A stretch of 34,911 bases of DNA, from the NCBI GenBank assembly GCA_027051195.1, contig JALUAB010000225.1, positions 1 through 34,911 of the forward strand, given 5' to 3'. The DNA is from Hyphomicrobiales bacterium (GTDB lineage Bacteria; Pseudomonadota; Alphaproteobacteria; Rhizobiales; Aestuariivirgaceae). Made by a program: the position numbers and the translations under genes. A model generated the notes under the pieces. That model worked only from the letters and a program-made list of their open reading frames with translations. It ran no database searches and was not told the DNA's origin. Shown piece after piece: positions 482 through 21,308 of the stretch. Each line of letters begins with the position of its first letter. The first letter of the stretch is position 1.

Positions 482-949
482 TCACGGCGCCTTCAGATCT
501 ACAATCACCCTGCCGACCATTCCTTCCGCCTTCCAATGCGGGCCACAAAGGTAGGAATACTCGCCCGGCGGACCGTCGAACTTCATCTCCACCATCTCTT
601 CCGGATCAGGGAAGATGCGCTCGGATTCCTCCTTGCCCGTATCCCGGAACCACACCGAGTGCGACGTGCGCTTGTCCACGTTCACCCAGCGCACGGTGGT
701 GCCGGGCTTCACCCGCACCTGCGGTGGGCAGAAGGTGTACTTGAACATCTTCACCACCACGATGCCCTTTTTCTTCAGGCTGCCGGAAGGGTGACCGTAA
801 ATCTTTTGATAGCGCTTTTCCGCCTCTTCGCAGATCTTCTGCTTTTCCGGCGTCATCTTCGGCGGCTCAGGCGCTTTTTCCTGCGCAGCGGCGCCACCTG
901 CGAGCATGACGACCAGCACCATGCCAAGCAGGCCAGTCAGGGGCTTCAT
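482..949 (-). CDS. Periplasmic cupredoxin (plastocyanin/pseudoazurin-like type 1 copper protein)
   Basis: Signal peptide MKPLTGLLGMVLVVMLAGGAAAQ; type 1 Cu ligand pattern TSHSVWF...YLCGPHWKAEGM; SD-like ggagggag before ATG at 949. Confidence 0.85.
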   Translation of the reverse strand: MKPLTGLLGMVLVVMLAGGAAAQEKAPEPPKMTPEKQKICEEAEKRYQKIYGHPSGSLKKKGIVVVKMFKYTFCPPQVRVKPGTTVRWVNVDKRTSHSVWFRDTGKEESERIFPDPEEMVEMKFDGPPGEYSYLCGPHWKAEGMVGRVIVDLKAP

Positions 950-1061
950 GGCTCCCTCCCTGTCTTGCATGGCCACCGCCTCGTTCCCGCTTCCTGCATA
1001 GCAAAAGAGCGGCGGCACCGCCATGCCGCCGCTCCCTGTTCCTTGCCACGGTGCAACCGCC

Positions 1062-2690
1062 TCAGGTCACGTGATTGGCGCGGTTGGACACGTTGAACTT
1101 GCCCGTCGGCGTGTAGAAGCCCTTGATGCGCTTCTTCTCCTTCAGCGTCTTGGCGTCATAGACCACGATCTCGCCGTTGGGCTTCTTCGGGTCGGAGCGG
1201 TTCCACACCGAAACCCAGAACTCCGAACCATCGGCGTTGAACTCGATGTGCACCGCCGCGTAGCCCGGCGTTTCGGTCACGACGATGGGGCCGATGAGCT
1301 TGCGCGTCTTCTTCTCCAGCGCGTAGATGGTCTGACGCACCTCCTCATCCGGCGATTTCGTCTGATCCGCCAGCACATAGGGCGAGTTCGGGTGCGTGCG
1401 GATGAACACGCCGGGACCATCCAGCGTCACGTCATAACACACCTTCCAGGCCTGATCCGGATGCCCCTTGGGATCGTTGCCCCACGTGGTGATCTTGCCC
1501 TCGCCCAGATACACCGTGCCGCCCACGGGCCCGCATTTCGGATCGACCCAGTTGGCTCCCGGGCCGGGGTGTGGCTTGCGGCCCACGTCGATGATGGCCT
1601 CCAGCTTCCAGTCCTCGGTGTCCACCACCACCATCTGGTTGGATGCGTTCGCCGCGATCTGGAAATAACGGCCGGTGGGATCGAAGAACCCGTCGTGCAG
1701 GAACCTGGAGGTCTGCATCTGCACGATTTTCAGGTTCTTCAGGTCGGTATAGTCCACCTGCCACATCTGCCCCAGCTCCTTCGCCGAAATGAGGAAGGAG
1801 GGTTGCAGCGGCGTGGTATAGACCGCGGCCACGCGCGATTCCTCGACGTAATTGCCGTTGATGTCGTAGCCGCGGGTGGATACCACGCGCAGCGGCTCCA
1901 TGGTCACGGCATCCACGATCACGAAGTGCGGCGGCCAGTAGCCACCACCCACCACGTATTTGCCGTCTCCGGAAACGGCCACGTCGCGGGCGTCATAGGC
2001 GATCTTGGTTTCCGCCACCACCATCTTGTCCGGCGTCTGCCACAGGTCGATCTTGGTCAGCTTGCCGTCGCGCCCCATGGTGTACCAGAAGCGCCCCGGA
2101 TGCTTGCTCTGCTTGATGTGGTGCTTCTCGGCCGATTTCAGCACGTGCACGGCGTACCCCGTGTTCAGGTGCGCCACGATCTCGTGCTTGTCGCCGTCCA
2201 CCACCGCCACCTTGCCCACGTCACGCTCGATGACCAGGAAGAAGTTCTTCCAGTTGCGCCCGTGCAGCGGCTTGTCCGGATAGTCCTCCGGCTTCACGTA
2301 AACCTTGGTGGCCTTCTTCATCATAGCCAGAGACATCTCCGGCGGTTTCGGCGGCGGCAGCTGGATGTATTTCGCCAGCAGCAGGATATCCTCCTTGCTG
2401 AAAATATCGCTGAACGGGTTCATGCCGCCGTCCGTGCCCTCGGTGATGATGCGGACGAGCTTTTTCGTCCCCAGCTTTTTCGTATTCTTCGGCTCCAGGT
2501 TCTTGCCCGTCGCGCCTTTGCGCAACACGCCGTGGCAACCCGCGCAACGGTCGAAATAGAGCTGCTTGGCCCGGTTGAACTCCTGCTCCGAAAGCTTGAT
2601 CTCCTCCGCCGCTCCGGAGGTTGCACCGCCCGTCAAGACCATAATGCCCACGGCGATGGCCAGAAGCGATACTTGCGCGCGTCCTTTCAT
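1062..2690 (-). CDS. nirS: Cytochrome cd1 nitrite reductase, NirS-like, divergent C-terminus
   Basis: Signal peptide; heme c site CAGCHGVLRKGATGK; d1-domain motifs TGYAVH, FLHDG, KPHPGPGANWVDP, TPTGKFNV match NirS. Confidence 0.85.
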   Translation of the reverse strand: MKGRAQVSLLAIAVGIMVLTGGATSGAAEEIKLSEQEFNRAKQLYFDRCAGCHGVLRKGATGKNLEPKNTKKLGTKKLVRIITEGTDGGMNPFSDIFSKEDILLLAKYIQLPPPKPPEMSLAMMKKATKVYVKPEDYPDKPLHGRNWKNFFLVIERDVGKVAVVDGDKHEIVAHLNTGYAVHVLKSAEKHHIKQSKHPGRFWYTMGRDGKLTKIDLWQTPDKMVVAETKIAYDARDVAVSGDGKYVVGGGYWPPHFVIVDAVTMEPLRVVSTRGYDINGNYVEESRVAAVYTTPLQPSFLISAKELGQMWQVDYTDLKNLKIVQMQTSRFLHDGFFDPTGRYFQIAANASNQMVVVDTEDWKLEAIIDVGRKPHPGPGANWVDPKCGPVGGTVYLGEGKITTWGNDPKGHPDQAWKVCYDVTLDGPGVFIRTHPNSPYVLADQTKSPDEEVRQTIYALEKKTRKLIGPIVVTETPGYAAVHIEFNADGSEFWVSVWNRSDPKKPNGEIVVYDAKTLKEKKRIKGFYTPTGKFNVSNRANHVT

Positions 2691-2758
2691 GGCACCCTCG
2701 TCCCTCTCTGGCGTTCCACTTAGCGGACAAAGAATGCAGGATGTGGAAGTGTGCGGCT

Positions 2759-2772
2759 TTGACCCCCGTCAA
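2759..2772 (-). promoter_or_regulatory. FNR/DNR/NNR-type operator TTGAC-CCCC-GTCAA upstream of nirS-like gene
   Basis: Perfect 5+4+5 palindrome; centre about 75 bp upstream of the start codon; CATTCT -10-like hexamer suitably placed for a class II site. Confidence 0.65.
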
Positions 2773-2885
2773 GCGTACGTTGCATAAGGCAGAACGCGGC
2801 CGGTCGCCCCATTGACAAGCTCGCCGCGGCAATGCATCCAGACGGCGGTTTCGCGCCCATTCCAGTAACGGAGGCCACCACCGGA

Positions 2886-3335
2886 ATGACCTTCGATCGT
2901 CCGCTGGCCACACGCCAGCCCGCCAACGGCGCGGAAGATACCCGCCATTACGACCGCATCTACGTGCGCGACCTGGTGCTGGACGCACGCATCGGCATTC
3001 ATGCGCCGGAGAAAGGTCGCCGCCAGCGCGTGCGCGTGGACGTGGCGGCGGACATCCTGCCCGCCGACCGCGCCGAGGACATCGGCCGCACGCTCTGTTA
3101 CGATTACATCATCGAGGGCATCCGCGACATCGTGAACGGCGGCCACATCAACCTGGCCGAGACGCTGGCCGAGCGAATCGCCGCCCACCTGCTGGCACAC
3201 CCGCTGGCCATGCGCGCGGAGGTGCGGGTGGAAAAGCTCGATCGCATCCCCGGCGCGCGTCTGGGCGTGCACATCGTGCGCGAAAAACCGGCGCACCCCG
3301 CCGCCGAGGTCATCTCCTTCGAGCCTGAGAGCTGA
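2886..3335 (+). CDS. folB: Dihydroneopterin aldolase FolB-like
   Basis: RIYVRDLVLDARIGIHAPEKGRRQRVRVDV ... NLAETLAERIAAHLL; upstream in-frame start at 2832 possible. Confidence 0.8.
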   Translation: MTFDRPLATRQPANGAEDTRHYDRIYVRDLVLDARIGIHAPEKGRRQRVRVDVAADILPADRAEDIGRTLCYDYIIEGIRDIVNGGHINLAETLAERIAAHLLAHPLAMRAEVRVEKLDRIPGARLGVHIVREKPAHPAAEVISFEPES

Positions 3336-3407
3336 AGCACGCCGCCCTCTTGGCTTACCGCCAAAGCCGGCATCGCCATGCGAGCGCCCGCCGCGCCTGC
3401 GGCCCGC

Positions 3408-3872
3408 CTACTTCCGCCCGACCTCCACCCGATAGCTGGCGTGGCAACCCACGCAATTGAGCATCAGTCCGGAGAGCATCTTCAGCGAGTCCTTCGCGTC
3501 CTTGCCGCTCCCGATCTCTCTTGCCAGCGTGCGAAAGGCCGCGTGCGTGTCGAATCCCAGCCTCTTCAGCTCCACCGGCAAATCGCGCAGCAACGAGGCG
3601 GGTATCTGGTTCATGTCCACCTTGCCGGCGGCTCTTGCCTCTTCCGCGGCGCTTTTCATGTCGCCACGCGCCAGTGCTTCCGTGATGCCTTGCACGCTTT
3701 CCAGCCAGGCGCGCATTTCAGCCAGCAGAAAGGCGCGGTCGGAGGCGGAAAGCAAGACCACGGTGCGCCCGTCTTCTCCCTGCACCGTATTGCCGCGAAT
3801 CACGAGGAACCACGCCATCGCCCCCAGCGCCAGCAGCAACAGGAGCACCAACACGCCACAGAGCTTTTTCAT
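3408..3872 (-). CDS. Membrane-anchored cytochrome c'-like monoheme protein
   Basis: N-terminal hydrophobic anchor, helical body, C-terminal heme motif NCVGCHASYR. Confidence 0.7.
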   Translation of the reverse strand: MKKLCGVLVLLLLLALGAMAWFLVIRGNTVQGEDGRTVVLLSASDRAFLLAEMRAWLESVQGITEALARGDMKSAAEEARAAGKVDMNQIPASLLRDLPVELKRLGFDTHAAFRTLAREIGSGKDAKDSLKMLSGLMLNCVGCHASYRVEVGRK

Positions 3873-3964
3873 CGCGTCATCCCTGTTTCAGCCGAACGCA
3901 CCCGGCGCCGCCCTCTCCGCAATGTCGCATGCCACGCCACGCAGCCTGTCCCGCTGCAAGCCCC

Positions 3965-5389
3965 TCATGAAACGACACCACGCAGGGCGGACGTGGCCCG
4001 GGCCGCCAGCTTGTGATTGCGCACGAATGTCAGGAAGGCATCCACCCACGGCGATTGCCGCGTGTGCCGGAGATGCGCGAATCCGGCAATCGCATTATGC
4101 AGCACGATGCCATCGCGCCCGCCATTTATTCCGTGGCCCCGCCGCACGTCCCAGGCGAAGGCCAGCCTCTCGCACGGACAATTCTCCAGCGCCGCGTAAT
4201 GAAATTCGTGCGCGCGAATCACCTCGCCCGCCCTGGCCGCCGGCGACCACGGCGCCGCTCCGCTGGCCGCCAGATGCACGATGCCCCGTCCCTGCGGCTG
4301 CTTGTGCATCACCGCCTCGCCCGGCAGAACACCGCACATCTCCGCCGCCTCCTCATCCCAGCGTATGCGCTCGGCCAGATACATCAGCCCGCCGCATTCC
4401 GCATAGGTGGGCAAACCGGCGCGGATGGCCGCCGCCACTGCCCGCCGCATGGCGGCATTGGCCTCCAGCTCCTTCATGTGCGTTTCCGGAAAGCCGCCGG
4501 GCAGGAACAGCGCATCGATGTTCTCCGGCAACGCGGCATCATGCAGCGGGCTGAAGAACGCCAGTTCCGCGCCCGCCTCCTCCATGCGCTCCAGATCGTC
4601 CGCATAGGTGAAGCAGAAGGCGGCGTCCCGCGCCACCGCCACGCGCAAGCCCGCCCCCGCCGGCACCGGTGTTTCCGGCGCCGGCGCATCCAGTGGCGCC
4701 GCTCTCCGCGCAATCTCCTCGATCCGCGCCATGTCCACCTGTTCCGCCACCGTGGCGCCGATGGCGGAAAGCCACGTCTCCCGCGCTGCCACATCCCCGG
4801 GTGTGGTCAGCCCCAGGTGCCGTTCCTCCAGCACGAGATCGCTGTTACGCCGCACCGCGCCCAGCACCGGAATGTCCGTGTAGCGTTCCACCGCCGCGCG
4901 CAGTTTCGCCTCGTGCCGCGGCCCCGCCACCCGGTTCAGGATCACCCCGGCGATGCGCACATCCTTGTCAAACGCCTGATATCCCTGCAGCAGCGGCGCG
5001 ATGCCGCGCGTGATTCCCTCCGTGTCTATCACCAGCACCACCGGCGCCCGCAGAAGCCTCGCCAGCGCCGCGTTGGAATCGGAACCATCCAGCGACAGTC
5101 CGTCGTGCAGCCCCTTGTTGGCCTCGACGATGGAAATGTCCGCCCCCTCCGCCCGACGGGTGAACAGCGCGGTGATCTCGTCCGCCCTCTGCGTATTGAA
5201 GTCCAGATTGTAACTGGCCCGCCCGCTGGCGAGTTTGTGCCACAGCGGGTCGATGTAATCCGGCCCTTTCTTGAACATGTGCACCCGCTTGCCGCGTTCG
5301 CCAAGCGCCCGTGCCAGCCCCACGGAAACCGTGGTCTTGCCGGAGGACTTGTGCGCGGCGGCAATGAAAATGCGCGGCAGGTGGAGCAT
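3965..5389 (-). CDS. dsrN: DsrN, cobyrinic acid a,c-diamide synthase (CobB/CbiA) family, siroheme amidase
   Basis: AAHKSSGKTTVSVGLARAL P-loop, class I GATase triad region PTYAECGGLMYLAE; FHYAALENCP; locus context. Confidence 0.88.
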   Translation of the reverse strand: MLHLPRIFIAAAHKSSGKTTVSVGLARALGERGKRVHMFKKGPDYIDPLWHKLASGRASYNLDFNTQRADEITALFTRRAEGADISIVEANKGLHDGLSLDGSDSNAALARLLRAPVVLVIDTEGITRGIAPLLQGYQAFDKDVRIAGVILNRVAGPRHEAKLRAAVERYTDIPVLGAVRRNSDLVLEERHLGLTTPGDVAARETWLSAIGATVAEQVDMARIEEIARRAAPLDAPAPETPVPAGAGLRVAVARDAAFCFTYADDLERMEEAGAELAFFSPLHDAALPENIDALFLPGGFPETHMKELEANAAMRRAVAAAIRAGLPTYAECGGLMYLAERIRWDEEAAEMCGVLPGEAVMHKQPQGRGIVHLAASGAAPWSPAARAGEVIRAHEFHYAALENCPCERLAFAWDVRRGHGINGGRDGIVLHNAIAGFAHLRHTRQSPWVDAFLTFVRNHKLAARATSALRGVVS

Positions 5390-5422: not shown

Positions 5423-6061
5423 CTACCAGTCCAGCGCCGCACTTTCCATGCGCTCGAGTTGCGGCTTCACGCGTTCGATGGCCTTCTCGATGAGTCGCCG
5501 ATGCTCTTCCGGCAAGTCGAGCGACAGCGCCTCCCGATGCCCTTTCGGCGACATCTTCAGCAGCGTCTTGGCCACAATGTCGATGCGCTTGTCCTCGTCG
5601 TAATGCGCATACTTCCGCAGGAACGATTCCAGATAATGCTCCACGAACACCACGTCCACCACGTTTTCCAGCGCCTGACTCAGCCGGTCTTTCTTCAGCT
5701 GCTCCTTGCGCACCAGCTTCTGCACCTCGGCGATCTCCTCGTCCGAATAGCCATGCCGGCGCATGATCTCGCCCAGCAGCCTCGCATGATGCTCGCGGCA
5801 TGCCTTGCGCCACTGATTGTAGCCCTTGCGGCCTTCGGGAAAATCCGAGCGCGGAATGTCGAAGCGCCGGACATGCTGTCCATAGGCGGCGATTTTCAGC
5901 GTTTCGGGCGCATTCCGATACATCTTTTCCAGCCGCTCGAGCATGCGCCGGGAATAAACCACCTCGAACGGCAGTTCCTCGCCATTCAGCACCTCGCGCC
6001 GCGGGTCTTCCGCGTTCGCAGCGTCGATCTCGGCGAAGACCTTTTCCAACCGCTCGCACAT
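5423..6061 (-). CDS. DUF4202-family-like protein of unknown function
   Basis: AIDAANAEDPRRE...LERLEKMYRNAPETLKIAAYGQHVRRFDIPRSDFPEGRKGYNQWRK...VQKLVRKEQLKKD...VFVEHYL pattern; SD-like ggaaagg before ATG at 6061. Confidence 0.75.
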   Translation of the reverse strand: MCERLEKVFAEIDAANAEDPRREVLNGEELPFEVVYSRRMLERLEKMYRNAPETLKIAAYGQHVRRFDIPRSDFPEGRKGYNQWRKACREHHARLLGEIMRRHGYSDEEIAEVQKLVRKEQLKKDRLSQALENVVDVVFVEHYLESFLRKYAHYDEDKRIDIVAKTLLKMSPKGHREALSLDLPEEHRRLIEKAIERVKPQLERMESAALDW

Positions 6062-6099
6062 GGTCCTTTCCCTCACTTCACACGCACAGATCTTACGGC

Positions 6100-6340: not shown

Positions 6341-7585
6341 TCAGGCGGCCTTCTTCAGCTCCTCCACCTTCCCGCCGGCCAGGTGCGGATCCACTTCCGC
6401 ATCCGCCAGAGATACGGGCAGGATACGCAGCACCTTCGCCGCCAGCAGGGTTATGGCCACCCCCATCGCCACGCCGCCGATACCCAGCAGAATCTCCGGC
6501 ATAGTCGGCGCATAATTGGCCACCACGCCGTCGAGGAAGCTGCTCTTCACCTCCTTGCCCGGGAACAGCACCAGCGGATACGACTGGCCGCCGATGATGA
6601 CAAAATACATCAGCGAGATACCGCCAATGATGGTGAGAATGGAGGCGAAGATCACTGGCTTCATGCTGGTGCGGGCGGATCCGGAAAACACCATCAGCAT
6701 CGGCAGGATGGTGCCCACGCCGATGAAGCCCAGCCAGTAGAGCCAGCTGTAGACGTTGCCGGAGAAGAAAAGGTACTGGACCACCGGGCGATGTTCGGCC
6801 GCATACAGATCGGTGAGCCACCACACCACGGTGAAATAGGCCGCCGCCGCCAGGAACACGCCCAGCAGCCGCCCCATACGGTTCACCAGACCGACGCCGA
6901 CAGGCCGCTCGTCTCCGCGCATCAGCGCCGTCATCAACAGAATGAAGATGGCCAGTCCGAAGGAGAACGACAGCGCGATGAACATTGGCGCGAACACGGC
7001 CAGGTCATAGGCCTGCCGCGCCACCAGCCAGCCGAAGATGGAGCCGGTGCCCGTGGTGAGGATGAGACGCCAGACGAAAGCCAGCGTGCCCGCCGTCCTG
7101 TAGAACCGGCGCACGCGGAAGTCCTGGCTCATCTGCGTGTAGAGATACAGCAGCACCACGGCGAAGAAGCCGTTGTATAGATAGATGTTCCACGCGAAGA
7201 TGGAGTGGAAGTTGTATTCCGTCATGGCCACGATCAGCCGGTCGGGCCGCCCCAGGTCCAGCACCAGGATGACCAGACCGCCGGCCAGCGCCGCCGCCGC
7301 CATCACCGCCGAGAGCCGGCCCAGCGGCTTGTAGGCCGTGCGCCCGAACACGGTACCGATGGAGGCGACGTTCAGGATGCCGGAAGCGGCCACGATGAGG
7401 AACACGGCGAACACGTGCGGCATGCCCCACACGATCTGGTTGGTCATGCCGGTGACCACATGGCCGTGATGCTCCATGTAGTAGGCGGCCGCCAGCCCGA
7501 TGAGCATCAGCGCGCCCATGGAGAGCAGCGCCGTGTAGTAGCCCACCCTGGACTGCAGATATTCGTAGTGGAAGTGCTTCTTCAT
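6341..7585 (-). CDS. dsrP: DsrP, NrfD/PsrC-like integral membrane quinone-interacting protein
   Basis: Multi-TM protein; order dsrJ-O-P. Confidence 0.92.
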   Translation of the reverse strand: MKKHFHYEYLQSRVGYYTALLSMGALMLIGLAAAYYMEHHGHVVTGMTNQIVWGMPHVFAVFLIVAASGILNVASIGTVFGRTAYKPLGRLSAVMAAAALAGGLVILVLDLGRPDRLIVAMTEYNFHSIFAWNIYLYNGFFAVVLLYLYTQMSQDFRVRRFYRTAGTLAFVWRLILTTGTGSIFGWLVARQAYDLAVFAPMFIALSFSFGLAIFILLMTALMRGDERPVGVGLVNRMGRLLGVFLAAAAYFTVVWWLTDLYAAEHRPVVQYLFFSGNVYSWLYWLGFIGVGTILPMLMVFSGSARTSMKPVIFASILTIIGGISLMYFVIIGGQSYPLVLFPGKEVKSSFLDGVVANYAPTMPEILLGIGGVAMGVAITLLAAKVLRILPVSLADAEVDPHLAGGKVEELKKAA

Positions 7586-7601
7586 GGCGTCCACCCTCCA
7601 C

Positions 7602-8387
7602 TCACGGCAGCCGCGTGTAGCGAATGCCATTGTCCGTGCCGAGGTCGGCGCGGATCTGGTAACTGCGGATTTCCTTCAGCCGCTTGCGCAGCTCGGAGTT
7701 CGGGTCGTTCATGTCGCCGAACAGCATCGCGCCTTCCGGGCAGGCCTCGGCGCAGGCCGGGATGCGCCCCACGTCGATACGGTGCGCGCAGAAATCGCAT
7801 GATGTCACGCAGCCCTTGCCCATCGGCGCATGAAACCGCTTCTTCTCTTCCGGAATGTCCTCGTGCACAAAGGAACGCGCCTTGTAGGGACAGGCCATCA
7901 TGCAATAGCGGCAGCCGATGCAGGTGTGCATGTTCACCCGCACGATGCCGTCCTCGCGGCGCATGGAGGCACCGGTGGGACACACGTCCACGCACGGCGG
8001 GTTGGCACAGTGCTGGCACATCACCGGCAGCGACGCCATGAAGCCGGTGAGCGGATCCTTCACATCCACCTTGCGGATCCACTGCACGTCCGTCTCCGAT
8101 CCCGGCTCCGCCTCCCAGCCGTTTTCCTTCTTGCACGCTTCCACGCACTTGTCACAGCCGCTGGTGCATTTGGAGGTGTCGATGAGCATGCCCCAGCGCT
8201 TTTTCGGATCGAGCGGCTCCCCGGGCTTCTTGGCCTGCGCCTCACCGCCCATGCTGTAGAGCATCATGCCGCCGCCCAGCGAAACGACGCTGGCTGCCGC
8301 GATATTGCGCAGGAATTCGCGCCGCGCCTCGTCGATCTCATCGCGCCGCGCCTGCTCGTGCCTGTCCCTGGCGCCCTGATCGCTCAT
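7602..8387 (-). CDS. dsrO: DsrO, periplasmic Tat-exported 4Fe-4S ferredoxin-like subunit
   Basis: ARREFLRNIAAASVVSLGGG Tat-like signal; multiple CxxCxxC(x)nCP clusters. Confidence 0.92.
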   Translation of the reverse strand: MSDQGARDRHEQARRDEIDEARREFLRNIAAASVVSLGGGMMLYSMGGEAQAKKPGEPLDPKKRWGMLIDTSKCTSGCDKCVEACKKENGWEAEPGSETDVQWIRKVDVKDPLTGFMASLPVMCQHCANPPCVDVCPTGASMRREDGIVRVNMHTCIGCRYCMMACPYKARSFVHEDIPEEKKRFHAPMGKGCVTSCDFCAHRIDVGRIPACAEACPEGAMLFGDMNDPNSELRKRLKEIRSYQIRADLGTDNGIRYTRLP

Positions 8388-8857
8388 TTGCGCCCTCCCT
8401 GCACATACTCCAAAAGTTGCGCGAACTTGCTCTGCTTGCTTCCCATGCCACCCGGCAGCGCAGCCTGCGTATCCGTCTCTTCGGGCACCGACTTGTGGCA
8501 GCTCCAGCAGTCCACCTTCACTGCCGCGAAGTCATGGCATACGCGGCAGAAATGCTTCGGCGAGGCCACGGTAACAGGCTTGCCGGTCTTTTCGTCCTTG
8601 ACCATGTGGCAGGTCAGGCAGGCGGAAAGAGACGCCTTGCCGCCGCGTATGCCCTTGAACATGGTATCATCGCGCCGGTGCATGAGAATGTTCATGTGTT
8701 CCCGCCGCATCTGATCCCCGGGCAGCACACAGTCGCCCTTGGTCCTGTCGATGGGGATCTTCGGCACGATATCACCGGCCTGAGCCACCGATGTCGCCAG
8801 CACGAGGCCGGCACAAGCGGCCAGAATGGCCGGGGCTGCTCTCCCGAATGCGCGCAT
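8384..8857 (-). CDS. dsrJ: DsrJ, periplasmic triheme cytochrome c
   Basis: Signal peptide plus CLTCH, CRVCH, CWSCH; ends overlapping dsrO start. Confidence 0.92.
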   Translation of the reverse strand: MRAFGRAAPAILAACAGLVLATSVAQAGDIVPKIPIDRTKGDCVLPGDQMRREHMNILMHRRDDTMFKGIRGGKASLSACLTCHMVKDEKTGKPVTVASPKHFCRVCHDFAAVKVDCWSCHKSVPEETDTQAALPGGMGSKQSKFAQLLEYVQGGRK

Positions 8858-8910
8858 GATGCTCGCCCGCCTGTTGTCCGGTTTTCCCACTCGCCCCCGA
8901 TGGCGTCGGC

Positions 8911-8935
8911 CGGGAGCGCCAGTCCGGCGCTCCCG
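8911..8935 (-). other. Strong intergenic hairpin between dsrL and dsrJ
   Basis: Perfect 10-bp stem CGGGAGCGCC-AGTCC-GGCGCTCCCG. Confidence 0.6.
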
Positions 8936-8951
8936 CCCGCTCTCGTTCTGT

Positions 8952-10928
8952 TTACTGGCCGAGGCCCATCTTGATGTAGCCCGTCGGGCACACGTCGGAG
9001 CAGATGTGGCAGCCGACGCAGCGGGTATATTCCGTGAACACGTAACGCCCCACGGCGCGTTCCGACTTCGGCACGCGGTGCACCGCATCCTGCGGGCAGA
9101 AGATCACGCAGTTGTCGCACTCGAAGCACAGGCCGCAGCTCATGCAGCGCTCTCCCTCGTGCACCGCCTGCTCTTCCGTCAGCGGCTTGATGCGCTCCTG
9201 GAAGTTGCCCAGCACGTGTTCGGCGTCGATGGGAATCTCCTCGCGCCGGGAACGCGGATCCTCGGTGAAGTGGCCGAGGAACATCTCTTCGTGCGTGACG
9301 ACTTCCGAACCGGCACGATCCTCGTAATTGTGCACCGCCCATTCGGATTCACAGGTGCCCATCACCTGCGCGCCGTCATAGGGTTGCACGTCATGTCCGC
9401 GCTGCGCCAGTTCGTTCAGCAGGTTGAAGTGCGCCACGTCCACTTTCGGGCGCTTCTCCAGCGGCTCGCCGGAGAGATAGTGCGCGATTTCATCCGCTGC
9501 GATGCGCGCATGACCGATGGCGGTAGTCAGCAGATGCGGACGGATGATATCGCCGCCGGCAAAGTGTTTCTCCTGCCCGGCCACGCGGAAGTAGGCGTCG
9601 GTATCCATGAACCCGCGCTCGTTGGCCAGGTCCTCGAAGCCCTCGAAGTCGCCATACTGGCCGATGGCGGCGACGATCAGGTCGGCCTCCACCTCGAACT
9701 CCGTGCCCTCGATGGGAACCGGCGTCATGCCGTCCATCTTGCATTCGCACATCTTCAGGGCGATAGCCTTGCCGTTCTCGTCCTTGATCACCTCCAGCGG
9801 CATCACGCCACCGATGATGCGCACGCCCTCGCGCATGGCCTCCTGGCGCTCGTGCTCCTGCGCCACCATCTGGTCGATGGGGAACAGCGAGGTCAGCACT
9901 GCCTCCACGCCCTCGCGGCGCAGGATGCCGGCCACGTCATCGGCGGTGAAGCCGCCGATCTTGCCGTCGATGTTGTCCGGCTTGCGCACGTCCGTGATGT
10001 GGCCAAGACGGCGCGCCACGGACGCCACGTCAATGGAGGTGTCACCGCCGCCCACAACGACGATCTTCTTGGCGGTACCGTAAACCCAGCCCTGGTTGAA
10101 CGCTTCCAGGAACTCCACGCCGGTGATGCAGTTCTCGCAGTCCTCCCAGCCCGGAACGGGAAGCGGCCGCCCCTTCTGCGCGCCGATGGCCCAGAAGATG
10201 GCATCGAATTCCTCTTCCAGCTGCTCCACGGAAACGTCGCGGCCCACACGCGTGTTGGTGCGCGCCTCCACGCCCATGTCGAGGATACGCTGGATCTCCG
10301 CATCCAGCTTGTCGCGCGGCACGCGGTAGGTGGGAATACCATAGCGCATCATGCCACCCAGCTTCGGATGCTCCTCGAAGATGGTGACGTTGAAGCCCTT
10401 CTTGCGCAGGAAATAGGCTGCCGCCATGCCCGCCGGGCCGGAGCCGACTATGGCCACCTTCTTCAGCGCCTCGTTGCCGGCGGCGACGGGCTCCTCATAC
10501 TTCAGGCCCTGGTCAATGGCCCAGTCGCCGACATAATGCTCCAGTGCGTTGATGCCGACGAAATCGTCCACGACGTTGCGGTTGCAGCCGTCCTCGCACG
10601 GCGCCGGGCACACGCGGCCCATGATGGCCGGAAACGGATTGGCCTTGGACATGCGCTCGAAGGCATACTGCTGCCAGGGCATGTTTTCGTCCGCAGGCTT
10701 GTCCATGCCGCGCGCGATGGCCAGCCAGCCGCGGATGTCGTGGCCGGAGGGGCAGGACGCCGAGCACGGCGGCGTCTTCACCACATAGACCGGGCACTTG
10801 TAGGAGGTATCGCCGACGAAGATCTTTTCCTCCAGATCCCACTCCTTGGGGTTCTCGCCCTCGCGGTACCGGCGGAAGAATTTGCCGTCGGTCTTCGGAA
10901 GACCCTTTTTCTTGATCGGTGTGCTCAT
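8952..10928 (-). CDS. dsrL: DsrL, FAD/Fe-S NAD(P)H:acceptor oxidoreductase (GltD-like)
   Basis: VAIVGSGPAGMAAAYFLRKKGF, VVVGGGDTSIDVAS, C-terminal ferredoxin CMSCGLCFECDNCVIFCP and CVGCHICSDVCP. Confidence 0.93.
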   Translation of the reverse strand: MSTPIKKKGLPKTDGKFFRRYREGENPKEWDLEEKIFVGDTSYKCPVYVVKTPPCSASCPSGHDIRGWLAIARGMDKPADENMPWQQYAFERMSKANPFPAIMGRVCPAPCEDGCNRNVVDDFVGINALEHYVGDWAIDQGLKYEEPVAAGNEALKKVAIVGSGPAGMAAAYFLRKKGFNVTIFEEHPKLGGMMRYGIPTYRVPRDKLDAEIQRILDMGVEARTNTRVGRDVSVEQLEEEFDAIFWAIGAQKGRPLPVPGWEDCENCITGVEFLEAFNQGWVYGTAKKIVVVGGGDTSIDVASVARRLGHITDVRKPDNIDGKIGGFTADDVAGILRREGVEAVLTSLFPIDQMVAQEHERQEAMREGVRIIGGVMPLEVIKDENGKAIALKMCECKMDGMTPVPIEGTEFEVEADLIVAAIGQYGDFEGFEDLANERGFMDTDAYFRVAGQEKHFAGGDIIRPHLLTTAIGHARIAADEIAHYLSGEPLEKRPKVDVAHFNLLNELAQRGHDVQPYDGAQVMGTCESEWAVHNYEDRAGSEVVTHEEMFLGHFTEDPRSRREEIPIDAEHVLGNFQERIKPLTEEQAVHEGERCMSCGLCFECDNCVIFCPQDAVHRVPKSERAVGRYVFTEYTRCVGCHICSDVCPTGYIKMGLGQ

Positions 10929-11006
10929 GTTTCACCCTCCATCTGCCCGGACGCTCATGCCCGGACCATTCCTGTTGCTGTTCCTTCAGGCCTCTCGGAC
11001 CATTGC

Positions 11007-12584
11007 CTATTCCGCTGCATCCACCGCGTTTTCCGCGTCCTCGCCCATCAGCTCCTTTTCCTGCATGGAGCCGGGCAGGATGATCGCGTTCGACACCAGC
11101 TGATGCACCGACATGATGTCGTCCACCGCGTAGCCGTAATCCGGCATGACCTTGGCGAACTGCGTCTTGCAGATGGCGCAGATGGCGGCCATCTTGTTGA
11201 CACCATATTCCTCCGTGACGTGCTTGAGCGCCTTCATGCGCGGGCTGCCGCCCTTCTTCCGCAGCTCCATCAGGTCGTCCGTAAGCAACCCGCCGCCACC
11301 GCCGCAGCACAGCGTCTCTTCGCGCGTCGTGCCCTCCGGCATCTCGTAGTAATGGTTGCAGACGGCCTTGATGATGTTGCGCGGAATGTCGAACTGCCCG
11401 CCCGGATAGTCGCCCATGCGCGAGGCGCGCGCCACGTTGCACGAATCGTGATAGGTGAGCTTGATCCAGTCGTTCTGAGACTTGTCGAACTTCAAGAGCC
11501 CCTTCTGGATCGCATCCCAGGTGTATTCGCAGATGTGCTGCGGCACCGGATAGTTGGGATCCAGGAAATCGAACGGCCCGGCCAGCGTGTTCAGGAACTG
11601 ATAGGCCGCACGCCAGGCGTGCCCACACTCGCCGATGATGATGCGCTTCACGCCCAGGTCGATCGCCGCCTTGCGGATGCGCAGCGCGATACGCCGCATG
11701 TTCTCGTAGGAGCCGATGAACATGGCGAAATTAGCCGCTTCCGAGGCATAGGAGGAAAGCGTCCACTTCGCGCCGGTGGCGTGAAACACCTTGGCGTAAC
11801 CGATCAGACCATCGATGTGCGGCTCGGCGAAGAAGTCGGCCGAAGGCGTCACCAGCAGAATATCGGCCGGCTCGTCCAGCGGAATGCGCACCTTCACGCC
11901 GGTATCTTCCTCGATCTCCTCCTCCAGGTCTTCCAGCGTGGACTCCAGCGCCGGCTTGGGCAGGCCGAGGTTGTTGCCCACCTTGAACACCTTGCCGATA
12001 ATCTCGTTGGTATATTTCATGCCGACGCCGACGGAATCGAGGATCTCGCGCGCCGCCATGGTGATTTCGGCGGTATCGATGCCATAGGGGCAGAAAACCG
12101 AACAACGCCTGCATTCGGAGCACTGGAAATAGTAAGTGTACCACTCCTCCAGCACGTCTTCCGTCAGCTCCCGCGCTCCCACCAGAGACGGGAACCACTT
12201 GCCCGGCAGGGTAAAATAGCGCCGATAGACGCTGCGCAGCAAATCCTGACGCCCCACCGGCATGTTCTTCGGATCGGAGGTGCCCATGTAGTAGTGGCAC
12301 TTGTCGGTGCACGCACCACACTTCACGCAGATGTCCAGGAACAGGCGGAAGGAACGCACCTTGCCGCGCATTTCCTCCATTTTGCCAAGCACGCGCTCTT
12401 TCCAGTCCGGAGGCAGCTCGCCCGGATATCCGAGCGGCTCCTGAAACTCCGGTGCCGCCTTGTAGGACTGGATATGCGCGGATGCTCCCTCCTTCGGCTC
12501 CGGATTGAAGTAGAGCGGATCCTCCTTCGCCTCCTGCGGCAGCTCGTCCGTCACACCCTGCGCGTTCTTTTCCAGATCAGACAC
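11007..12584 (-). CDS. dsrK: DsrK, HdrD-like Fe-S subunit
   Basis: CVKCGACTDKCHYY, CSECRRCSVFCPYG, CCGGGGG catalytic cluster motif; GTG start at 12584 with SD gggagagag (longer ORF extends to 12647). Confidence 0.92.
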   Translation of the reverse strand: MSDLEKNAQGVTDELPQEAKEDPLYFNPEPKEGASAHIQSYKAAPEFQEPLGYPGELPPDWKERVLGKMEEMRGKVRSFRLFLDICVKCGACTDKCHYYMGTSDPKNMPVGRQDLLRSVYRRYFTLPGKWFPSLVGARELTEDVLEEWYTYYFQCSECRRCSVFCPYGIDTAEITMAAREILDSVGVGMKYTNEIIGKVFKVGNNLGLPKPALESTLEDLEEEIEEDTGVKVRIPLDEPADILLVTPSADFFAEPHIDGLIGYAKVFHATGAKWTLSSYASEAANFAMFIGSYENMRRIALRIRKAAIDLGVKRIIIGECGHAWRAAYQFLNTLAGPFDFLDPNYPVPQHICEYTWDAIQKGLLKFDKSQNDWIKLTYHDSCNVARASRMGDYPGGQFDIPRNIIKAVCNHYYEMPEGTTREETLCCGGGGGLLTDDLMELRKKGGSPRMKALKHVTEEYGVNKMAAICAICKTQFAKVMPDYGYAVDDIMSVHQLVSNAIILPGSMQEKELMGEDAENAVDAAE

Positions 12585-12665
12585 GGCTCTCTCCCGCCAT
12601 TGACAGATCGGTTTCCTTGTCCACGCCGGCCGCTCACGCCGGCTCAATTCCTCTCACCACCGTGA

Positions 12666-13400
12666 CTACTCCTGCGGCACCTGGTCGATGGGTGGCAGAA
12701 CCGGCGACTGATAGAAACGTTCACGCGGATCGTCCACGGCGTTGCGCGTCGGCGAGAAGAACACGCCCGGCGCATGCACCAGCTTGGAGAACGGGAAGAT
12801 GATCATCCACAGCGCCACCAGGCCGAGATGCAGCAGCAACTGCGGCGAATTCGGCAACGGCTGCCAGTTGAACGTCATCAACCCCAGAAAGAAGGCCTTG
12901 ACACCCACGACATCCGTCCTGGTCACGAACGTCATCATCAGCCCCGAAATGCCGATACCGAGAAACAGCAGCAGCATGAGATAGTCCGAGGGGGCCGAGA
13001 TGTAGCGCACCCGGGCGACGAACATCCGCCGAGCCAGAAGCCCCAGCGCGCCCAGCACGAAAGTGAGCCCGGCATACTTGCCGAACGGCTGCGCCAGCGC
13101 GATGAGCTCCGGCACCGGCTGCAGGAAGTAGCGCAAATGACGAATGATGATCAGCCACAGGGAAGCGTGGAAAAGCTGCGCGAAGATCCAGATCCACTTG
13201 TTGGACTTCCACAGCGACTCGAAAAACAGCACTTCCTTGAACATGCGCCACAGCACGCCGACGCGCGTGGTGGGAGCCGGCGTCGTCGGAATCTTAAGCG
13301 GTACCGGCGTCTTCTTGTATTCCCATATGCGATAGGCGATGCCGCCGACGAAGATAACGAAGGCGACATAGAACAGAAGTGCATACACGGTCGTCAGCAC
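12666..13400 (-). CDS. dsrM: DsrM, NarI-like cytochrome b subunit
   Basis: Hydrophobic multi-TM protein; GTG start at 13400 with SD ggaggaa (ORF extends to 13478). Confidence 0.9.
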   Translation of the reverse strand: MLTTVYALLFYVAFVIFVGGIAYRIWEYKKTPVPLKIPTTPAPTTRVGVLWRMFKEVLFFESLWKSNKWIWIFAQLFHASLWLIIIRHLRYFLQPVPELIALAQPFGKYAGLTFVLGALGLLARRMFVARVRYISAPSDYLMLLLFLGIGISGLMMTFVTRTDVVGVKAFFLGLMTFNWQPLPNSPQLLLHLGLVALWMIIFPFSKLVHAPGVFFSPTRNAVDDPRERFYQSPVLPPIDQVPQE

Positions 13401-13655
13401 CGGACTTCCTCCCACCTCTTCGCGAACCGGATGCTCCGCCCCCGGCCAGTATCGGCCCGGCACGGATACCGTCGCCATCTCCCCCGTTTGCTGCGGATGC
13501 CAGCTTCCGGCTCCGGCCTCAAGGCGACATTTTTGCGCAAGCCGCCACTCGCAACCTGCACTCTGATGGCCGACGCCCGAATACCGTCAGCCGTCACAGC
13601 GCAAGCCCGCGCCCATAAGTTTGAGCGGCCAGACGACGATGAACCGCGTGAGGGG

Positions 13656-13684
13656 TGGCGGACAGGCTTCTCGCCTGCCCGCCA
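13656..13684 (-). other. Strong hairpin immediately 3' of dsrC
   Basis: TGGCGGGCAGGC-GAGAA-GCCTGTCCGCCA, 12-bp stem with one G-U, 8 nt past the dsrC stop; no U-tract. Confidence 0.65.
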
Positions 13685-13692
13685 GCATCGCA

Positions 13693-14034
13693 TTACACGC
13701 AGCCGGTCGGCTTCGGCAGACCGGCGATCTTGCACGCCTGCTTCGCCGGACCATAGGGGAACAGCTCATAGAGATACTTGTTGTTCCCCTTTTCAGGACC
13801 GAACTTCTTCTTGATCGCCTTAACGAGCACGCGGATGGCCGGCGCGATCTGATACTCGTCGTAATACTCGCGCAGGAAGTTCACCACCTCCCAGTGCTCG
13901 TCGGTCATGTCGATGCCTTCCTGCTTCGCGATGACCTCGGCGAGCTCCTTCGACCAGTCGGAAAGGTTGGTAATGTAACCTTCCTCGTCGTGCGGAACCT
14001 GTTTGCCGTTGACCTCGTAGAAACCAGTGGACAT
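13693..14034 (-). CDS. dsrC: DsrC, sulfur carrier protein
   Basis: C-terminal arm [16 protein letters not shown] with the two conserved cysteines. Confidence 0.95.
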
Positions 14035-14082
14035 TTCGCTTCTCCTCTTCCGTTGGTCACTCGGGAGCCGCAGATGCGGTCT

Positions 14083-14125
14083 CGTATGTATATTATGATA
14101 TATTCATATAGTCCAGAGGCTTCTG
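14083..14125 (-). promoter_or_regulatory. AT-rich candidate internal promoter upstream of dsrC
   Basis: Minus-strand CTATATGAATATATCATAATATACATAC in a GC-rich operon; CATAAT -10-like. Confidence 0.45.
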
Positions 14126-14232
14126 CGTCCTCCTTGTGGAACTTCCGGGGGTTTTCCACCCTTCGAATCTGGTTGCCCTGGCGACCATGAATCACCAACT
14201 GGCAAGTGAAAACCACCCCTGCATGCCGACCC

Positions 14233-14535
14233 TTACAGCCAGGCCTGGGTCTTGTCCGTTTCCGTTACCAGATCGACGAAACCGGCGTAATCGACGACTT
14301 CCACGCCATCGATGAGCTTGCCTTCCAGGCCGCGCGCCTTCACGTCAGCGGAAAGCACGCAGACTTTCACGCCCTGCACGGCGGAGAGTACATCAGCTGC
14401 CCGCCCGCCTTTCATTGCGGCATAAACGCCATCCTCGATGAGCAGCACGACGTCGCCTTCACCCACGTGATTGAGGCAGCTTTCCAGCGTGTTGCACTGG
14501 TAGGGCGACTTGTTCACCGTATGCAGCATACCCAT
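14233..14535 (-). CDS. dsrH: DsrH, DsrH/TusB-like
   Basis: MGMLHTVNKSPYQCNTLESCLNHVGEGDVVLLIEDGVYAA. Confidence 0.93.
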   Translation of the reverse strand: MGMLHTVNKSPYQCNTLESCLNHVGEGDVVLLIEDGVYAAMKGGRAADVLSAVQGVKVCVLSADVKARGLEGKLIDGVEVVDYAGFVDLVTETDKTQAWL

Positions 14536-14549
14536 GATGTTCGCCCTCC

Positions 14550-14957
14550 TCAGAAGCTCAGGATAACATCGGAATCGCGCATGATCTGCGCCATTTCCTC
14601 ACGGGACACGATGCGAATGGACGATTTCTCCGCCCAGTCGTCATCCTCATCCTCGTAGGTCATCTCGATGAGATCGTCCTCGCTCAGTCCGCGCTCCTCT
14701 AGGGACTCGCGCTCCACATATACCTTCTGGATATCGTAGTCGCCAAGCGCGGTATAGGCCGGCTGGAAGTTCTTCACGCCCAGCTCGGACGTATCCCACC
14801 CTTTCACCAGCTGATAGACGCCGTCATCGAGGAAGGCCAGCGCCACGTCCTGCTCGAACGCAGCGCCGATGAGCACCACCTCCAGCGATTCCAGCGCATA
14901 AATGGTGCCGTGCGGCGCCTTCCGGTTCACGTAGAGAAACTTCTTCACGTCAGACAT
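14550..14957 (-). CDS. dsrF: DsrF, DsrF/TusC-like
   Basis: KKFLYVNRKAPHGTIYALESLEVVLIGAAFEQDVALAFLDDGVYQL. Confidence 0.93.
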   Translation of the reverse strand: MSDVKKFLYVNRKAPHGTIYALESLEVVLIGAAFEQDVALAFLDDGVYQLVKGWDTSELGVKNFQPAYTALGDYDIQKVYVERESLEERGLSEDDLIEMTYEDEDDDWAEKSSIRIVSREEMAQIMRDSDVILSF

Positions 14958-14969
14958 GTCCGCCTCCCG

Positions 14970-15362
14970 TCAGTCGCCAAAGAACACCACCCGGTCGCAC
15001 TGGATTTCCGCCTCGATCAACTGACCGAGGCCGGAGATCCTGAAACCCGGCGCGATGTTGTTGGCGTCCTTGCCGTGGCGCTTCATTTCCTCTTCGTCCA
15101 GGATGCCGCGCCGCTGCGCCGCCGCCACGCACACCACGAGGTCGAGATTGTGCTGCTCGGCCAGCTCGCTCCAGCGCTTCTGGATGTGACGGTCGTCCTG
15201 CGGCGGCACCATCAGGCGCGTCGCATTGTTCACACCATCGTGATAGAAGAAGACACGGAAGATCTCATGCCCCTTTTCCAGCGCGGCGACCGCGAAATTG
15301 TAAGCGGTGTCCGACGCCTCGTGCTGGTAGGGCCCCTCAAGCACGCAAATTCCCAGCTTCAC
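14970..15362 (-). CDS. dsrE: DsrE, DsrE/TusD-like sulfurtransferase subunit
   Basis: KLGICVLEGPYQHEASDTAYNFA, LVVCVAAAQRRGI active-site Cys region; GTG start at 15362 likely (ORF extends to 15422). Confidence 0.92.
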   Translation of the reverse strand: MKLGICVLEGPYQHEASDTAYNFAVAALEKGHEIFRVFFYHDGVNNATRLMVPPQDDRHIQKRWSELAEQHNLDLVVCVAAAQRRGILDEEEMKRHGKDANNIAPGFRISGLGQLIEAEIQCDRVVFFGD

Positions 15363-15427
15363 CGGTTTTATCCCCTGCCAGATCCAAGTTGAACGCAAAT
15401 CCTTGTTCTTGTTCTTGCACATGAACG

Positions 15428-15454
15428 GGCGGGCCGACCCGAAGCCGGCCCGCC
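15428..15454 (-). other. Strong hairpin in the dsrB-dsrE intergenic region
   Basis: Perfect 9-bp stem GGCGGGCCG ... CGGCCCGCC. Confidence 0.6.
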
Positions 15455-15465
15455 GCCCATGAACG

Positions 15466-16548
15466 TCAATACTGGATATGCGTGGAGTGGTTGTGCGTCA
15501 GACGCGCATAAGTCCACGTGTCGATGTGATGTTTCACGAACGGCACGTCAATCAGCTCGAAGAAACGCGGCCAGCCGATGCGCTCGATCCAGTCGCTCAT
15601 GCGCTCCCAGTCCTTCGCATTCTCCTTGTAGGCGCGCAGGATCTTCATCACCACTTCACCCACTTCCGGCCAGCGCGGCGGATTGTTGGGCAGGCCAGCC
15701 ACCACCAGCTTGTGGAAGCGCGGCTTGGAGCGGGCGTTGGAGTGCTTGCCACCCACCCACACGGCGATGCGTGTCTCTTCCTTGCCGTTAATCTGCATCG
15801 GCGGGCACGGCGCATAGCAGGCACCGCAGCAGACGCACTTCTTCTCGTCCACCTCCAGCGACGGCTTGCCGTTCACCAGCGCCGGACGGATCGCCGCCAC
15901 CGGACAGCGCGCCACCACGGCGGGACGCTCGCAGACATTGGCCACCAGCTCGTGATTGATCCGCGGCGGCTTGGTGTACTGCACGTTCACCGCAATGTCG
16001 CCCTGACCGCCACAGTTGATCTGGCAGCACGAGGTGGTTATGCGCACGCGGTTCGGCATCTCCTCGTTCACGAACTCCTCGTACATGAGGTCCATCAGGG
16101 ACTTCACGACGCCGGAAGCGTCCGTGCCGGGAATGTCACAGTGCAGCCAGCCCTGCGTGTGCGAGATCATGGACACCGAGTTACCGGTGCCGCCGACGGG
16201 GAAACCCTCCTTCTCCAGCTCCTCGATCAGCGGATCGACATTTTTCTCGTCCGCCAGCAGGAACTCGATATTGGAGCGCGTGGTGAAGCGCACATGGCCG
16301 TCGGCATACTTGTCGGCCAAGTCGCACAGCTTGCGGATGGTGAACACGTCCATCTGCCGCTGCGTGCCGGCGCGCACCGTCCAGATCCTGTCACCGGACT
16401 TGGCCACGTGGCACAGCACGCCCGGACGCGGACGGAAGTGATAGTCCCACTGGCCGTAGTTCTTCTTCATGATCGGGTGCATGTACGGGAACGGATCGGG
16501 CACTCCGACCTCGTCCGGCATGCGCGGCTTCTGAGCAGTCTCGCTCAT
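15466..16548 (-). CDS. dsrB: DsrB, dissimilatory sulfite reductase beta subunit
   Basis: TTSCCQINCGGQGDIAVNV, CERPAVVARCPVAAIRP, ferredoxin domain CVCCGACYAPCPPM. Confidence 0.96.
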   Translation of the reverse strand: MSETAQKPRMPDEVGVPDPFPYMHPIMKKNYGQWDYHFRPRPGVLCHVAKSGDRIWTVRAGTQRQMDVFTIRKLCDLADKYADGHVRFTTRSNIEFLLADEKNVDPLIEELEKEGFPVGGTGNSVSMISHTQGWLHCDIPGTDASGVVKSLMDLMYEEFVNEEMPNRVRITTSCCQINCGGQGDIAVNVQYTKPPRINHELVANVCERPAVVARCPVAAIRPALVNGKPSLEVDEKKCVCCGACYAPCPPMQINGKEETRIAVWVGGKHSNARSKPRFHKLVVAGLPNNPPRWPEVGEVVMKILRAYKENAKDWERMSDWIERIGWPRFFELIDVPFVKHHIDTWTYARLTHNHSTHIQY

Positions 16549-16587
16549 TCTCTTCCCTCCGGATTACGCCTGTTTTTCATTGACGGA

Positions 16588-16607
16588 CGCAGGCGATGAC
16601 GCCTGCG
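16588..16607 (-). other. Hairpin in the dsrA-dsrB intergenic region
   Basis: Perfect 8-bp stem CGCAGGCG-ATGA-CGCCTGCG. Confidence 0.55.
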
Positions 16608-16640
16608 CCCGAAAATCGTATCGGAAAACGAAGGGGCCGA

Positions 16641-17906
16641 TTACTCGGCGGCCTCCTTCTTGCCACCCTTCTTCGCACGCATGCGCTCCAGCTCCGCCTG
16701 GAAGTCGTCGGTGCGCACGAAGGAAACCTGGCGCGGATGAAGCACCATGTTCGGATCCGGATCGACGCCGATGGCCTCCAGGAACGCCGGCAGGCCGATG
16801 CGGTCGATGGTCTCGCCGATGCGCTCGTGCTCCAGCGCGTTCTCGGCGAAGAAGTCGATCACCTCGCCGGCGAACTCCACGAGCTCCTCGAAGTCCTCCT
16901 CGGTCTCCAGCTTCACGAACGGCTTGATGACCGTGCCCATCAGGTCGCCAATCTTCAGCGTGCGCTTGCCGCCGATGAGGATCACCGCACCCTTGTCGTC
17001 ACCCGGGGACAGCGCGCGGTTCATCACGTTCAGGCAGTGCATGCAGCGCACGCAGGCCTTGTTGTCCACCGCGAGGGTGTCGTCATCATTGAGCTTCAGC
17101 GCGCGGGTCGGGCACATATCGACGACATGCTCCTGGATATAGTCGCGACCCAGCTCGGCGACATATTCCTTCACCTTCTCCTGGTCGACCTTCATGTCGT
17201 CGCGCCAGGTGCCGATCACGGCGAAGTCCGCACGGTGGATGGCGTTCACGCAGTCGTTCGGGCAGCCGGAGAACTTGAACTTGAACTTGTACGGCAGCGC
17301 CGGACGATGCATCTCGTCCAGATACTCGTTGATGATCAGGCGCAGCGCCTTGGCCTCGTCATAGCAGGACATCTCGCAGCGCGCATGGCCCACGCAGCTC
17401 ATGGAAGTGCGCAGGGCCGGACCGGCGCCACCGAGGTCGAAGCCCAGCTCGTTCAGCGCGTCAAAGGCCGGCTGCACGTTTTCCGAGGAGCAGCCCTGGA
17501 ACATGATGTCGCCGGACTGGCCGTGGAAGGCGATAAGGCCGGAGCCGTACTCCTCCCAGATGTCGCACATCTTGCGCAGGACGTCGGTATTGTAGTGCAT
17601 GCCTGCCGGCGGCATCACGCGAAGGGTGTGGAACTCCTTGGACTCGGGGAACTTGTCCGCCACCTCGGAGAAGCGCGGAATGATACCGCCGCCGTAACCC
17701 ACCACGGTGATGGTGCCACCCTTCCAGAAGCCCAGCCGCTCCTCGTAGGAGTGCTCGAGCTGACCCAGAAGGTCGTTGATCATCGGGGAATAACGCTTGC
17801 CGGCATCACGCAGGCGTTTCAGCCCCGTCACGAAAGACGGCCACGGACCCTTCTCGAGCTCGTCGAGCAGGGGCGTCGGGCGCACGTCGAAATCCTTGTT
17901 CGCCAT
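16641..17906 (-). CDS. dsrA: DsrA, dissimilatory sulfite reductase alpha subunit
   Basis: SMSCVGHARCEMSCYDE...KFKFSGCPNDCVNAIHRADFAVIGTWRDD; ferredoxin insert; start MANKDFDVRPTPLL at 17906. Confidence 0.96.
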   Translation of the reverse strand: MANKDFDVRPTPLLDELEKGPWPSFVTGLKRLRDAGKRYSPMINDLLGQLEHSYEERLGFWKGGTITVVGYGGGIIPRFSEVADKFPESKEFHTLRVMPPAGMHYNTDVLRKMCDIWEEYGSGLIAFHGQSGDIMFQGCSSENVQPAFDALNELGFDLGGAGPALRTSMSCVGHARCEMSCYDEAKALRLIINEYLDEMHRPALPYKFKFKFSGCPNDCVNAIHRADFAVIGTWRDDMKVDQEKVKEYVAELGRDYIQEHVVDMCPTRALKLNDDDTLAVDNKACVRCMHCLNVMNRALSPGDDKGAVILIGGKRTLKIGDLMGTVIKPFVKLETEEDFEELVEFAGEVIDFFAENALEHERIGETIDRIGLPAFLEAIGVDPDPNMVLHPRQVSFVRTDDFQAELERMRAKKGGKKEAAE

Positions 17907-18096
17907 TTTCACTCCCTCTGTCGTTTGTTGAGCGAAACTGCCTCCCGTGGACCATCCACGGAAGCAGCACGCCCAAACCGGAATCACCCAGCACGTTGTT
18001 CAAGGCCATCCAAGGCCGATGACATGATAGGCGTCCCGCTATCAAGGGGCCAAATCGCCCATGCGTTTTTTGCCACCCCTTGGAAATGTGGAACCG

Positions 18097-21179: not shown

Positions 21180-21308
21180 TTCGTCCGGCATGCGCCGTGC
21201 GATTGCATGGTGGAAAAGGCTGCGCATTTCTGCTTCCTTGCCTTATATGACGTGCGAAGGCAGGAACGCGATTCCGCACATGCGCTTTCAGGAAGGGAGA
21301 AAGGCTTC

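Follow-up and report, generated by a model that had tools for sequence, protein, structure and literature searches.

A clade-A cytochrome cd1 nitrite reductase gene and its cupredoxin partner beside a reverse-Dsr locus in an alphaproteobacterium

Introduction

In the cytochrome cd1 nitrite reductase (NirS) of P. aeruginosa, the heme d1 carboxylates are contacted by three arginines, at positions 156, 198 and 372 (PMC7278500). Pold et al. (2024) distinguished 15 NirS clades, one of which (clade 1k) comprises marine proteobacterial, lithotrophic sulfur oxidizers, and reported several nirS copies, mostly of different clades, in 16% of nirS-bearing assemblies (PMC10999283). As for sulfur oxidation, dsrABEFHCMKLJOPxN, apr and sox genes have been reported for Thermopetrobacter sp. 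TC1 (PMC5099947).

The organism studied here belongs to the same genus as strain TC1. We analysed a 34,911-nucleotide stretch of its DNA (hereafter the window; contig JALUAB010000225.1 of assembly GCA_027051195.1), in which a cd1 gene and a cupredoxin gene lie near a reverse-Dsr (rDsr) locus, and which had been the subject of an earlier note. Judged from its sequence and genomic context, the cd1 protein is very likely a NirS with predicted nitrite-to-NO activity, the cupredoxin is its likely copper electron donor, and the pair would represent normal denitrification genes in an unusual place.

Identity of the cd1 protein and its cupredoxin

The nirS gene, which is of the clade-A type described below, occupies positions 1062..2690 (minus strand) and encodes a 542-aa protein with a signal peptide. 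A Pfam search returns Cytochrom_D1 (370 bits) together with a cytochrome c domain, and the protein combines an N-terminal cytochrome c (CxxCH and a Met ligand) with a d1 propeller, as in NirS. The four motifs that the earlier note had read as the heme c site and d1-domain histidines of a NirS-like protein (i.e. CAGCH, TGYAVH, FLHDG and KPHPGPGANWV) are all present. Searched against the PDB, the sequence matches P. aeruginosa NirS best (1bl9, 435 bits), with P. aeruginosa and Paracoccus NirS at 435–419 bits, compared to 187 bits for NirN and 53 bits for NirF. Comparison of the predicted structure (mean pLDDT 82) likewise ranks NirS entries first (TM about 0.8, E 1e-53), followed by NirN (4e-38) and NirF (2e-20).

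The second gene (482..949, minus strand) encodes a secreted, plastocyanin/amicyanin-like cupredoxin, the probable electron donor, with a Pfam Copper-bind domain and matches to plastocyanins and amicyanins in the PDB. The ATG at 949 is a likelier start than position 1024, since it has GGGAGGGAG, which resembles a Shine-Dalgarno sequence, as well as a signal peptide. The protein is secreted and has the type 1 copper motif like plastocyanin, amicyanin and pseudoazurin, and its ligand loop (CGPHWKAEGM, C-x2-H-x5-M) is, as had been noticed, one residue longer than that of plastocyanin. The long loop is a conserved trait rather than an oddity of the window gene because relatives share it: it occurs in the window and in most alphaproteobacterial partners, while many other operon partners, among them most gammaproteobacterial ones, have a short amicyanin-like C-x2-H-x2-M loop (loop counts 41 and 27, some duplicate loci included).

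An FNR/Dnr-type box, TTGACGGGGGTCAA, lies at 2759..2772 (minus strand), and the nirS start codon follows 68 bases further downstream. The box that had been said to precede the cd1 gene is thus real, and it is the sole match to TTGAC-N4-GTCAA within the window, where 0.06 would be expected by chance. Similar boxes are found upstream of nirS in five congeners (G003, G004, G005, G007 and G008), and the gene pair may be regulated by an FNR/Dnr-type protein.

Phylogenetic position

In a maximum-likelihood tree, the window protein falls within clade A (support 96), whose sister is clade B (support 100), which includes the NirS of P. aeruginosa, Paracoccus, Ruegeria pomeroyi and Thermus; NirN, the outgroup, lies outside both. 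The supports are SH-aLRT values from a quick search, and few deep NirS lineages were sampled. The placement that the earlier note had asked about, relative to NirS, NirN and NirF, is therefore with NirS and away from NirN, but the protein is sister to the sampled ordinary NirS rather than nested inside it. The P. aeruginosa and Paracoccus structures from the PDB search are both outside clade A.

Clade A is a widespread marine NirS branch, distinguished by its conserved cupredoxin partner and changed heme d1 pocket. It is probably the published clade 1k, with which it shares the same kind of hosts, i.e. Sedimenticola, Thiodiazotropha, Thiotrichaceae and other marine proteobacteria (PMC10999283). 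Among 50 clade genomes, 45 have the clade-A protein as their sole NirS-type cd1; the remaining five also carry ordinary NirS, as do several other alphaproteobacteria. Genomes that carry both clades fit the multi-copy report of Pold et al. 2024 (PMC10999283) and leave room for a division of labour.

Operon context in relatives

In relatives, the gene pair resides inside nir operons (nirE-C-F-DL-GH-J-N), often adjoining norCB. The cd1 gene, the cupredoxin gene and nirC-F-DL occur together in G003, G049, G047, G017, G012 and G018, mostly accompanied by a nirE-like gene and additional nir genes. G026 differs in that its cupredoxin gene leads the nir operon and its cd1 gene is on a separate contig. 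The norDQBC genes of G003 are located upstream of the cd1 gene and divergent from it. The annotated order in Ruegeria sp. B32 is nor genes, nnrS, cd1, NapC/NirT cytochrome, plastocyanin/azurin, cobA (nirE), cytochrome c, nirF, AsnC-type genes, nirJ and nirN. NirF is encoded in 42 and NirN in 39 of 80 clade loci; higher locus counts for both were set aside because they were inflated by cross-hits on the cd1 protein itself.

Of the clade loci, 59 extend far enough downstream to be scored; 51 of these encode a NapC/NirT cytochrome that carries a fused ethylbenzene-dehydrogenase-type heme domain (EB_dh), and 47 contain the cupredoxin gene. The partner of clade-A NirS is a cupredoxin, usually along with NapC/NirT-EB_dh, in contrast to nirM for ordinary NirS. 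The NapC/NirT-EB_dh gene is typically located between nirS and the cupredoxin gene (e.g. L081:11778-13565), and its product may be the link from quinol to cupredoxin. In the Thermopetrobacter loci examined, it does not adjoin the cd1 gene.

Clade-A and ordinary nirS also appear to occupy equivalent positions. In Ruegeria, one operon slot holds clade A in Ruegeria sp. B32 and ordinary nirS in Ruegeria pomeroyi. Within Thermopetrobacter, ordinary NirS (G001, G009 and G010) and clade-A NirS (G003–G008) are mutually exclusive, and in G001 and G009 ordinary nirS sits in the same nor-nir setting that holds clade A in G003. This suggests gene replacement inside one operon within the genus.

Denitrification genes in the source genome

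The window contains no nirE, nirJ, nirF, nirD, nirL, nirG or nirH, as had been observed, and no nirN, with the exception of a gene for the siroheme synthase CysG (21789..23231, plus strand; NCBIfam PRK10637, 618 bits). Both heme d1 and the DsrAB cofactor have siroheme as their precursor. A genome-wide check for nir, nor and nos genes, as had been proposed, gave a mixed outcome: nirC, nirF, nirDL, nirN and norCBQD are present elsewhere, but nirJ and nosZ were not found in the source assembly. The first three are on contig C109, whose end falls inside nirDL, and nirN is on contig C9 (575 bits to 6rtd), adjoining the ABC transporter genes that in G003 lie between nirJ and nirN. In G003, nirG, nirH and nirJ lie exactly in the stretch that corresponds to the interval between the ends of C109 and C9, and synteny thus places these three genes of the source organism, presumably, in the assembly gap. 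Given the genes found and this gap, the heme d1 genes appear to be located elsewhere and not missing, and a missing d1 pathway was rejected as an explanation. A nirJ candidate on contig C50 (TIGR04051) was also discarded because it scored 55 bits, far below the cut-off, and all 14 control genomes gave similar matches. The earlier note had also envisaged a canonical nir cluster elsewhere with another NirS; nir genes do lie elsewhere, but no second NirS-type cd1 was found in the source genome.

Of the partner pathways, napA is on contig C23 (1417 bits) and NorCBQD is encoded on contig C133 (norB, 775 bits to 4xyd). We propose that (i) electrons would pass from the quinol pool to the cupredoxin, by way of the NapC/NirT-EB_dh cytochrome in most relatives and of bc1 or another cytochrome in the window organism; (ii) the cupredoxin would deliver them to the heme c of NirS and thence to heme d1, where nitrite would be reduced to NO; (iii) heme d1 would be made by NirC, NirF, NirDL(GHJ) and NirN encoded elsewhere in the genome; and (iv) N2O would be the likely end product, because nitrite would come from NapA and NO would be consumed by cNOR, giving a route from nitrate through nitrite and NO to N2O. 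An alphaproteobacterium with reverse-Dsr sulfur oxidation thus also encodes partial denitrification to N2O (NapA, NirS and cNOR).

Genes for cbb3 oxidases are present on contig C36 (L152:4443-8316), where two cbb3-type catalytic subunit genes in tandem are followed by a ccoO-like gene and a ccoP-like gene (two c-type hemes).

Active-site and heme d1 pocket residues

To compare residues, 91 close relatives (clade A), 35 ordinary NirS and 40 NirN sequences were aligned. His51, Met88, His182, His327, His369, Arg156 and Arg198 are kept in all 91 clade members, and the heme c ligands, His182, His327, His369, Arg156, Arg198, Arg225 and Tyr245 are invariant across both NirS groups. Clade-A proteins match the NirS of P. 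aeruginosa, Paracoccus pantotrophus and Thermus in fold, operon context and order of domains, and they share with them the heme c ligands, the d1 axial ligand His182, the catalytic His327 and His369, Arg156 and Arg198. The clade-A proteins differ from ordinary NirS in their sequence (about 43% identity), their position as a sister clade, an insertion after the d1-ligand motif and the C-terminus, where the window protein has AAVHIEFN instead of RVVQPEYN and NVSNRANHVT instead of NVYNTQH. The earlier note had picked out this departure from canonical NirS correctly, but it is clade-wide rather than peculiar to the window protein.

The heme d1 pocket is also changed, above all at two positions. 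Arg372 is replaced by Pro in 90 of the 91 clade members, with Arg156 and Arg198 retained, and Gln483 is replaced by His in all 91, as in NirN; Thermus NirS and five further clade-B proteins likewise have His at 483. Contact of three arginines with the d1 carboxylates is a structural detail of P. aeruginosa NirS and does not define the family. At position 174, clade A carries a basic residue (His, Lys or Arg) and NirN an Arg, compared to a hydrophobic residue or Thr in ordinary NirS, and the basic residue may compensate for the lost Arg372.

These NirN-like changes across the clade, and the ordinary NirS also kept by some genomes, are what could be expected if the protein were a repurposed cd1 that has lost nitrite reduction and acts as a sensor, as a protein that handles NO or, like NirN and NirF, as an enzyme of d1 biosynthesis. 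We regard this reading, which the earlier note had offered as one of two, as extremely unlikely. NirN (dihydro-heme d1 dehydrogenase) shares with clade A the cytochrome c and d1-propeller domains, His 483 and the basic residue at 174, but it carries Asp at position 327, where both NirS groups have His; the window protein has neither this Asp nor a NirN position in the tree, and the catalytic His327 and His369 are present in all 91 members. In addition, the source genome encodes a separate NirN (contig C9) and a separate NirF, and the clade-A protein fills the nirS slot of nor-nir operons and is the only NirS-type cd1 in most of the clade genomes. The nitrite-reducing role that the note had proposed is instead favoured by the conserved active site, the operon context in relatives and the d1 genes, NapA and cNOR in the same genome, although it is a prediction from these features.

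Clade A could further constitute a separate functional type of NirS, which would hold heme d1 differently (Pro 372, basic 174 and His 483) and be fed by its own NapC/NirT-EB_dh-cupredoxin chain. We consider this unlikely on balance; if true, it could imply different kinetics or oxygen/sulfide tolerance and would explain why clade-A NirS is retained beside ordinary NirS in some genomes.

Relationship to sulfur oxidation

The predicted NirS and its cupredoxin had been described as lying beside a reverse-Dsr locus and, in one of two readings, as a nitrite-reducing electron sink coupled to sulfur oxidation. The two loci are indeed adjacent, but a divergent folB, a small c-type cytochrome gene and dsrN intervene. 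The folB gene (dihydroneopterin aldolase; 2832..3335, plus strand) is outside the system, and its adjacency to the cd1 gene recurs in the sister species G006. The small c-type cytochrome gene (CVGCH near the C-terminus of its product; 3408..3872, minus strand) ends the dsr locus in congeners, with synteny in G002, G003, G004 and G008. It is followed by a dsrN-like gene for cobyrinate a,c-diamide synthase (cobB; 3965..5389, minus strand) and the rDsr cluster dsrA-B-E-F-H-C-M-K-L-J-O-P (6341..17987, minus strand). The rDsr cluster is present in all 10 congeners, and its gene order is conserved in those examined.

Window positions 2265-5297 are matched colinearly, at 81% DNA identity, by a contig of the sister species (G006, L186), and the cd1-folB-cytochrome-dsrN order is therefore real but lineage-specific. 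An assembly chimera is unlikely, since the sister species repeats this order. Elsewhere the linkage does not recur: dsr genes flank none of 80 clade loci (flanks up to 10 kb a side), and nirS and dsr are on different contigs in G003 and G004. The proposed check for a pair conserved next to dsr thus finds it solely in the sister species, a conserved dsr module was rejected, and the dsr adjacency indicates no new system. We infer that the pair once resided in a standard nor-nir supercluster and was later relocated next to folB and the dsr locus in the window species and its sister.

One could still envisage a NirS wired specifically to reverse-Dsr sulfur oxidation, with the neighbours co-regulated as a single electron-sink module. 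This would agree with the adjacency in the two species and with the distribution of dsrA, which was found in 23 of 50 clade genomes and in none of 13 sampled alphaproteobacteria with ordinary NirS only, a comparison uncorrected for kinship or taxonomy. The same survey gave no dsrA hit in 27 of the 50 clade genomes, and the absence of dsr genes around the clade loci, the unlinked genes in G003 and G004 and the intervening folB and separate promoter all argue against such wiring, which seems very unlikely to us. A normal NirS that happens to lie beside dsr genes may nevertheless receive sulfur-derived electrons: because about half of the clade genomes carry dsrA, such a coupling is plausible in metabolic terms, but it is not operonic. 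The coupling idea is thus tenable insofar as rDsr is encoded in the same cell, while its physical basis is confined to one sister species.

An Rfam search of the window gave no match. Two further parts of the dsr region are shared with congeners. A DUF4202 protein gene (5423-6076) lies between dsrP and dsrN in those examined Thermopetrobacter dsr loci that reach that far. Genes for a TauD-family dioxygenase (18256-19209) and a 112-aa protein without a Pfam hit (21207-21545) are located between dsrA and cysG and are conserved in congeners.
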